Assembly: GCF_052324685.1 (NCBI RefSeq) | Contig: NC_135213.1 | Coordinates: 37,064,078 to 37,128,077 of the forward strand | Direction: 5' to 3' | Length of the DNA stretch: 64,000 nt | Source of the DNA: Brachyhypopomus gauderio | Lineage: Eukaryota > Chordata > Actinopteri > Gymnotiformes > Hypopomidae | In this document: positions 49,838 to 52,800 of the stretch, one piece after another | Position numbering within the stretch: position 1 is the stretch's first letter | Layout of the letters: each line of letters starts with the position of its first letter | Position numbers and translations under genes: made by a program | The notes under the pieces: generated by a model | What the model was told of the DNA's origin: nothing | What the model saw: only the letters and a program-made list of their open reading frames with translations | The model's database searches: none

Positions 49838-52800
49838 TCATTTTCTGAACTGGGTGATGGGTGTTGGAACTTTGATGTCTTGGCCCTTTTCCAGTTTCTT
49901 CTCACAGTCAATCAAATAGTTGACACCATCGACCACTATTTGAACAAGCTCGACCTGGAGCAAAATCAGAGCTTGATTCATGCTGTACCTTCCTGTGTGT
50001 GTCCACACGCTTCAAATTCAAACTTGGTGTTTATCAATCAATCAATCAATCAAATTTTATTTATATAGCGCTTTTTACAACAGTTGTTGTCACAAAGCAG
50101 CTTTACAAGTGCCGAGTCCTAGCCCCCAGTGAGCAAGCCATAACCTGGTCTGGTTTGTACATGCACTTTTGTGTGTTCTAGGATTTCTAAGACCAGCCCA
50201 GTATCTAATCATAGGTTGAAACGGTTCAGAAAAAACAACTCTGCAACTGGTGATATACGTCATGGTTTTCCATATGGCACAGTCGATTATGAAGTTTTGT
50301 GTCTGATCTGAACTGACCTTGTCTGAACCTCATAGACTGACAAAATGTCCAAAAACTTGACTGAGAAAAGTCTCGCTTTGCCTCTTTGTGTTCTCTAAAC
50401 CTCCCTGTGTCATGTACATGTACCATTTACAACAACCGTTTTCCCCTCAGTCTCATTAAGGTCATTGGTGAGGAGCCTGTGAAGTGATTTACCTCAGACT
50501 TGCCCAGACGGTCGAGGTTGGAGATGTCAAAAACGTCCCCCACGGCGGCGGTGTCCACACCACCCGTCCCTCGCTTCTGTAGCCTGAGATTGTTCAGGAT
50601 CTTCGAGAAGCGGGAGTCCTGAAGGGTGCAGAGAAAGATCAGGAAAGCAAAGACGTCCCGATAACGTGAGCATTCACAGAGCGTCAAATCAACTTACCAA
50701 TGGCTTGAGACATGGACAAATCATTTATAGTGTAATCGTTTATAGTGTAATTGTTTATGGTCTAATCGTTTATGAGTCGTCGGCTAAAGCGTTGACGGAT
50801 GCGTCAGGTCCAAGGCGGCACCTTGCTGAGTAGCGGCAGGCGGACGTGAACTCCAGCCCTCAGGCCGGTACCCAGGTTGGACGGGCACGTCAGGATGTAG
50901 CCCAGGTGTTCATTCCACATAAACTCCCAGCCTCTCTCCTGAATCAACCTCTCCACCTAAAACACATCACAAAAAAAAACGAATATATAAGCTTTCTGGT
51001 TCGCAAGGAGAATGGTGACGATGTTGTTCTGAGTACGTTTAACTACTTCTTTCAGTCCTCTGCAGAATCTCTCAAAGACCCTCTTCATGTTTCCGCCCTT
51101 CTCCATGGAGATGACGCGGGTGTGGTCTTCCTCATTGACCCAGATTAAGAACGTCTTCTCGTTGTTGTGCCTGTTCAATGACACATGTGAATTTGAACCT
51201 CCATTAAATGCATAGTTGAAAGTCTTTATTTCATCCTGAAAGGTCACAGTAGGTCATAATTTAGAAATCTTCAAAATATCAACATACTTTTGCTTTCAAG
51301 ATTTTTTGCATTGGATTAGTGTGTTAGCAAAATAATTTTGTGATAAAGTGAAAAATGAATGAAATACAAATACATATCACAGTCTCTGTCAGGACTTTCA
51401 CAGACAAACTAGACTTTCACAGACAAAAGTGAAGACGGTTAGTAAGCAGCCAATCGTGGTGCAAATTTCATGCACCATACCAGATCCCTCTGGCATCGGG
51501 CCAATCACGAGCCATCCCTGCACAAGTCAACAAGGGTGAGACGGGCTTGTCAAACAGGAAGTGATCCTGGGATGGGACAGGCCAATCAGGGACAAAGGAG
51601 AAAAAGTGAGGGAGGGGTTAAAGAAAAAAGACTGAAGTCTGAATGAAATTCAAACGTCTTGTGGACACATCTCCTGTTCCCGGGCTTGTCCAGGCAGTCA
51701 GCCAAATCTCTCCTCAACCTTGGCAGATTAATCACTAATTCATTCAGGTACGGCACCAGTGTGACTGACAGTAATGGTACTCTGGTGTGCAGTACAAAAG
51801 CAGTGATGTGAAACCTTCAGTTTACATTTAAATATTATGCATTTGGCAAAACACCCTTATCCAGACCGCTGAACAATTTCAAGGATGTTACACAGATAGG
51901 CAAGTGTAGTGTTATGAGTCTTGTCCAAAGACCCTTATTGTTATACATAGGGGAGTTTTGTAGTAATCCCCTACACCGGACTACCCATGTGGACTTGAGA
52001 TCATGTTATCCACTGCTTAGAGCTTTCCACTTCATTTGCATTTGAACTGGAGCATGTCCGTAACGTCACTACTTGCTGTGTCCATTTTGTGAAGATTGTG
52101 CGTGGCCGTTTGAAAGTCTACAAAACCGAAGAGGTTGGACAACAGGTGTGGGGTTGACTACCAGCGACTAGCATGGCTACGATTCTAAATGGGGGCTCCG
52201 CTACTTTCTACACCTTACCAAATGCCTCGAGCATCGGGCCAGTCTCTGGCCATACCAGACGCGGTGAGGAGTGGAGACACTGGCTTGTCAAACAGGAAGT
52301 GCTCCTGAGGCAGCCCGATTTGAGACAAAAGCATCAGTGTGTGCGTTACTCAGTATGACAAACGTAAAGGGAGGACAACAATGATGCTTAACAGAGACCG
52401 AGCTTCAGCTGTGGATACATTTATGAGGGCATACGAAACAAATGGAAGGCCATTCCTGCCACTTAAGAAAAAAAATTATGCATATAGCATCTCATAATTA
52501 TGATTTACTTTCTCATAATTATGACTTAGTATGTCAATTGACTTACAATCTCATAATTATAACTTAGTATCTCATAATTACTACTTACTATCTCATAATA
52601 AAGACTTACAATCTCATCATAAAGACTTACTATGCCATTATGAGATAGTAAGTCATAATTATGAGATAGTAAGTCATAATTATGAGATAGTAAGTCATAA
52701 TTATGAGATAGTGAGATAGTAAGTCATAATTATGAGATAGTAAGTCATAATTATGAGATAGTAAGTCATAATTATGAGAAAGTATGGCACTTCTTTTGCC

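Follow-up and report, generated by a model that had tools for sequence, protein, structure and literature searches.

An ancient tandem exon pair in fish ckmt2, likely spliced one-or-other, would give two forms of one mitochondrial creatine kinase

We find that the ckmt2 gene in the window (the whole stretch of 64,000 nucleotides of Brachyhypopomus gauderio DNA analyzed here) carries two adjacent versions, A and B, of a single coding exon. It is very likely that they form an ancient tandem-duplicated pair that is spliced one-or-other, from which two forms of one mitochondrial creatine kinase would be made. A sequence-only reading of this DNA had described a tandem-duplicated exon, probably mutually exclusive, and both the window and the one-or-other proteins of relatives support that description.

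The complete ckmt2 coding region lies on the minus strand, from 54290 down to 49838 (window positions throughout), and its joined exon translation is that of CKMT2. Coding exon 1 (54145–54290, 146 nt), which holds the start codon, is followed by exon 2 (53482–53680, 199 nt), exon 3 (53183–53278, 96 nt), and exon 4 (52847–53068, 222 nt), the upstream partner common to A and B. Exon A (52219–52304) and exon B (51481–51566) are separated by an intron of 652 nt (51567–52218), and the downstream coding exon common to both (51047–51170, 124 nt) leads on to exons at 50822–50956 (135 nt) and 50493–50618 (126 nt) and to the last coding exon, with the stop codon, at 49838–49954 (117 nt). Open frames at 41836–44211 on the plus strand are, by eye, presumably the homeobox gene otp, and one at 60357–60722 on the minus strand is what we take to be a RasGEF-type exon of rasgrf2; otp and rasgrf2 are also the neighbors of human CKMT2. 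Upstream of ckmt2 there is a minisatellite with units of about 20 nt of the TTAGGTTAGCTCTCCCTCTC type (56393–56883), and a long CA/GT run lies near it (about 55837–55977).

Exons A and B are both 86 nt long, share the same phase, and encode 28 residues plus (W) each. Both have AG and GT borders: the acceptor ends CTGCCTCAG/GAG in A and CCCATCCCAG/GAT in B (the slash marks the exon border), and the donors are TTTG/GTAAGG and TCTG/GTATGG, respectively. These borders confirm the coordinates, lengths, common phase, and intact splice sites given in the sequence-only reading. A repeat finder also picked out the pair unprompted, reporting a family of two 97-nt copies that are 74% identical and lie 738 nt apart. 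Translation with A alone yields a creatine kinase of 416 residues, as does translation with B alone. Inclusion of both exons leads to a stop after 262 residues, 431 nt ahead of the last coding junction, and omission of both leads to a stop after 233 residues, 346 nt ahead of it, in agreement with the earlier claim that using both or neither would break the frame. Messages with a stop well ahead of the last junction are, by the usual rule, expected to decay, and the both-exon and no-exon messages would probably be removed by nonsense-mediated decay. Being adjacent and homologous, with the same length class and phase and with intact splice sites, A and B have the features of the class of either-or tandem exons.

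The two copies differ at 24 nucleotides (28% of bases), spread over 18 codons, with three residues changed: Glu to Asp, Ala to Cys, and Ser to Ala, from A to B. Our recount agrees with the figures reported before. Neutral simulation carried to 24 differences gave a mean of 14.9 residue changes, and none of the 20,000 runs had fewer than 8, against the 3 seen; a stop was gained in 51% of the runs. By the Nei-Gojobori method, 16.7 changes fall on 19.8 silent sites (pS 0.84, which is saturated) and 7.3 on 67.2 replacement sites (pN 0.109), while the intron flanks of A and B are no longer alike (ungapped identity of 0.23–0.30 upstream and 0.35–0.40 downstream). The saturated silent change, the three replacements, and the unlike flanks indicate that the duplication is old and that both copies have been kept under selection, as had been proposed from the codon differences. 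A recent duplication or an assembly artefact is ruled out by the saturated silent sites together with the presence of both types across fishes.

Three protein searches (best 120 of 3,642, of 1,469, and of 361 matches) gave 222 distinct proteins, mostly predicted gene models. We used 194 of these relatives, setting aside 23 in which the segment matched more than once and 5 beyond the length range, and built a FastTree tree with the 29-residue segment masked and a sponge enzyme as root. The CKMT2 clade, taken as the smallest clade with six chosen CKMT2 rows, comprises 131 of the 194 relatives. In a smaller tree of 66 rows, also built with the segment masked, the window gene falls in the CKMT2 clade and apart from CKMT1 (SH-aLRT support of 99), with Electrophorus as its nearest row (92% identical).

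Two signatures account for the whole of this clade among the matches listed: Glu at position 1 of the segment without Cys at position 15 (A, as in exon A; 67 of 131 rows) and Asp at position 1 with Cys at position 15 (B, as in exon B; 64 of 131), with no row of mixed type (0 of 131). B-type rows always read TCA (residues) at positions 14 to 16, followed at position 17 by Gly (42 rows) or Phe (22 rows), and A-type rows have Thr, Ile, Val, or Met at position 14 and Ala or Ser at positions 15 and 16. Outside the clade, all 63 rows have Asp, 53 without Cys and 10 with it. Glu also occurs among the proteins left out of the tree, in both segments of P0001 (Coryphaenoides) and in the two-domain kinases P0080 (both segments) and P0122 (one segment), none of which is an A/B pair. 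A search for the second exon in ckmt2 of other fish had been proposed along with the original description, and a copy that is missing from relatives or decaying there had been named as the case against it; what we found is both versions in the proteins of relatives. As a separate observation, Dallia (P0022) and Coregonus (P0070) have Phe at position 17 in both of their segments, where the other A-type rows have Gly, which hints at exon-to-exon conversion or at a parallel change.

In four gene models, from Synaphobranchus (eel), Atractosteus (gar), Dallia, and Coregonus, A precedes B, which is also the order in the window. We further examined 15 same-species record pairs, hand-picked on same-size contigs among the matches listed as a nonexhaustive sample. 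All 15 differ only inside the A/B segment, by 2 to 6 residues, and they include a Garra ckmt2a pair and a pair from Acipenser ruthenus. In Garra rufa, two ckmt2 genes each come in both versions (P0035/P0042 and P0095/P0110); these genes sit on opposite sides of the paralogue split in the 66-row tree. Both versions are also present in a sturgeon and a gar. Judged from these sequences, the pair is older than the first description suggested, and the recurrence of the same two versions in fishes from sturgeon to carp puts the likely age of the switch at several hundred million years. In the 66-row tree, built without the segment, the A/B label changes at least 18 times among CKMT2 rows, a count that illustrates rather than tests the point, since known pairs were deliberately among the rows selected.

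The two forms are already recorded by database annotators as X1 and X2 isoforms, and two Phoxinus records, one for each version, share one locus name. There are also mRNA-like, intron-free contigs for each type, both from other species: P0207 is a complete A-type protein of 417 residues on a contig of 1,371 nt, and P0085 is a B-type protein on a contig of 1,640 nt. The source tag of P0207, lgn, presumably stands for assemblies of public reads. As ckmt2 has eight introns in its coding region, a contig as short as that of P0207 would be an mRNA or, less likely, a retrocopy.

Among early-branching and lobe-finned lineages, Amia, Polypterus (bichir), and Latimeria (coelacanth) have A-type rows, and Erpetoichthys, Lepisosteus, Polyodon, and Acipenser oxyrinchus have B-type rows. 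The named tetrapod CKMT2 rows among the matches listed, from six mammals and one bird, are B-type in 7 of 7 cases, and the chicken structure 1crk has the B sequence at this segment. That mammals have a single version, as the sequence-only reading stated, fits with the six mammalian rows. With the coelacanth A segment as query, the best 120 of 361 matches included no named tetrapod or cartilaginous-fish protein of A type, and the matches listed contained no CKMT2 row from lungfish, amphibians, or reptiles. Bony vertebrates probably inherited the pair from their common ancestor, and the lineages leading to mammals and birds probably lost or silenced exon A, though we regard both the apparent absence of A there and the time of its loss as provisional.

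These tetrapod rows bear on a different account, in which A is a relic and B alone is used, with A unused or rarely used. They indicate that B alone suffices in some lineages, and the pyrimidine run at the acceptor is longer in B than in A (13 versus 5). However, A is open and spliceable, it has kept Glu and Ala or Ser in 67 of 67 A-type rows across fishes, and the saturated silent change with three replacements speaks for constraint on both copies; the intron-free P0207 contig is also of A type, though it could be a retrocopy. We consider a relic very improbable. A second possibility is that the extra exon sets the amount of enzyme and not its kind, with the both-exon and no-exon messages going to decay and the two protein forms being equivalent. 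The stops well ahead of the last junction in both of these messages are what such control would call for, but equivalence would not account for why all 131 clade rows pair either Glu with no Cys or Asp with a Cys, nor for the invariant Cys at position 15 in 64 of 64 B-type rows, and we hold this possibility to be very improbable. There is next to no chance that the residues are marks of ckmt2a/ckmt2b paralogues or of alleles and the window pair an assembly accident: many species do show one version per gene among the matches listed, but such confusion is ruled out by the presence of both exons within one gene in the window and in four other fish gene models, and it is at odds with segment-only pairs that occur in genes to either side of the paralogue split and with copies that differ at more than a quarter of their bases (28%).

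If A and B are indeed spliced one-or-other, as we favor, several known ways of enforcing such a choice fit the gene poorly. The introns around the pair measure 542, 652, and 310 nt, and all have GT-AG borders. Steric exclusion by a short intervening intron is unlikely, as the intron between A and B is the one of 652 nt, and so is U2/U12 incompatibility, given the GT-AG borders and, by eye, no U12-type donor. Docking RNA structures of the Dscam kind found no support, the longest intron pairings being 13 nt, within the shuffled range. A distant branch point as in OGDH was also rejected, the AG-free stretch ahead of B being about 60 nt. With steric exclusion, U2/U12 incompatibility, and intron pairing unsupported, the frame rule and a choice in trans are left, and tissue splicing factors may set that choice. 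Past the B donor, and not past that of A, the minus strand carries TGCATG at +7 (51469–51474) and ACTAAC at +38 (51438–51443), which we take to be an RBFOX-type and a QKI-type motif, respectively. These sites are candidate activators of B, and we treat them as a lead only, since the motifs were chosen after the fact and TGCATG, at about 0.5 per kb on the minus strand, is not above shuffles in the window. A dense, AT-rich array of inverted repeats, with a 21-nt unit around AGTAAGTCATAATTATGAGAT (52489–52792), fills much of the intron directly upstream of A and might fold into a long hairpin.

By alignment, the residues changed between A and B correspond to 185, 199, and 200 of the 1crk chain. 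The replacement of Glu and Ala or Ser (A) by Asp and Cys (B) at 185 and 199 may tune the enzyme while leaving its reaction unchanged, for example in its sensitivity to oxidation. The presence of Cys at position 15 in all 64 B-type rows, and in none of A type, suggests redox tuning. It is conceivable, if doubtful, that bony fishes use a cysteine switch between an oxidation-sensitive and an oxidation-proof enzyme in different muscles or oxygen states, and that this is an ancestral layer of vertebrate energy control which mammals and birds have discarded. A structure model of the Chanos A form, made with 24 relatives, had a mean pLDDT of 62.6 and values below 50 at 225–246; because of this low pLDDT at the A/B segment we draw nothing from it. 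The literature we searched on creatine kinase interface residues contained nothing on the changed residues.

Creatine kinase is among the best-studied enzymes of muscle energy metabolism, and its forms are usually put down to separate genes. A switch within one gene, present in ray-finned fishes and apparently not in mammals or birds, would escape work done on mammals. The two forms also offer a clean comparison, being so few residues apart in the 15 pairs. As databases give A for one species and B for another, scans for selection or convergence can mistake exon choice for substitution. Passages of one study of electric fishes name ckmt2b as positively selected in two lineages (PMC7952227). 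Among the matches listed, the cavefish is represented by an A-type record and Electrophorus by a B-type one (P0015, P0017, and P0018), and the ckmt2b signal in those passages may be confounded by this difference.

We found no description of an exon pair in a creatine kinase among the matches listed from open full text. Neither creatine nor CKMT (CKM in one of them) appears in the main texts of seven splicing papers (PMC9741552, PMC4465641, PMC5740500, PMC7954323, PMC12159805, PMC9013439, and PMC7093569), and in the excerpts available of three papers ckmt2 or ckmt2a is named as a gene without the exon pair (PMC12487847, PMC4558960, and PMC9330239).

A close parallel is OGDH, in which, according to the available part of the report, distant branch points enforce exclusion between exons 4a and 4b and the swap sets the calcium response (PMC7969005). 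Like ckmt2, OGDH encodes a mitochondrial enzyme of energy metabolism and has an internal exon that is duplicated, with a single copy going into each message so that the enzyme is tuned (PMC7969005), although for ckmt2 the choice and the tuning are what we propose from sequence. The two differ in that ckmt2 has only the short AG-free stretch ahead of B and that its swap changes a cysteine. PKM is likewise a metabolic kinase that uses one of two adjacent homologous exons, 9 and 10, but it belongs to another enzyme family and has retained its switch in mammals, as far as the excerpts seen go (PMC12487847 and PMC9741552). Human tandem duplicated exons, as described in the portions available of two surveys, resemble the ckmt2 pair in being adjacent, homologous, and of ancient origin (PMC9741552 and PMC5740500), and often also in having a length that is not a multiple of three, as do 60% of clusters (PMC5740500). 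Such lists begin with human genes, however, whereas the ckmt2 pair is one of fishes; tetrapod CKMT2, as in 1crk, is the same enzyme with the B sequence and has no A version in the tetrapod rows listed. The class of either-or tandem exons is known from OGDH and PKM, and what appears to be new here is the creatine kinase case, its unusual depth, and its apparent loss in mammals and birds.
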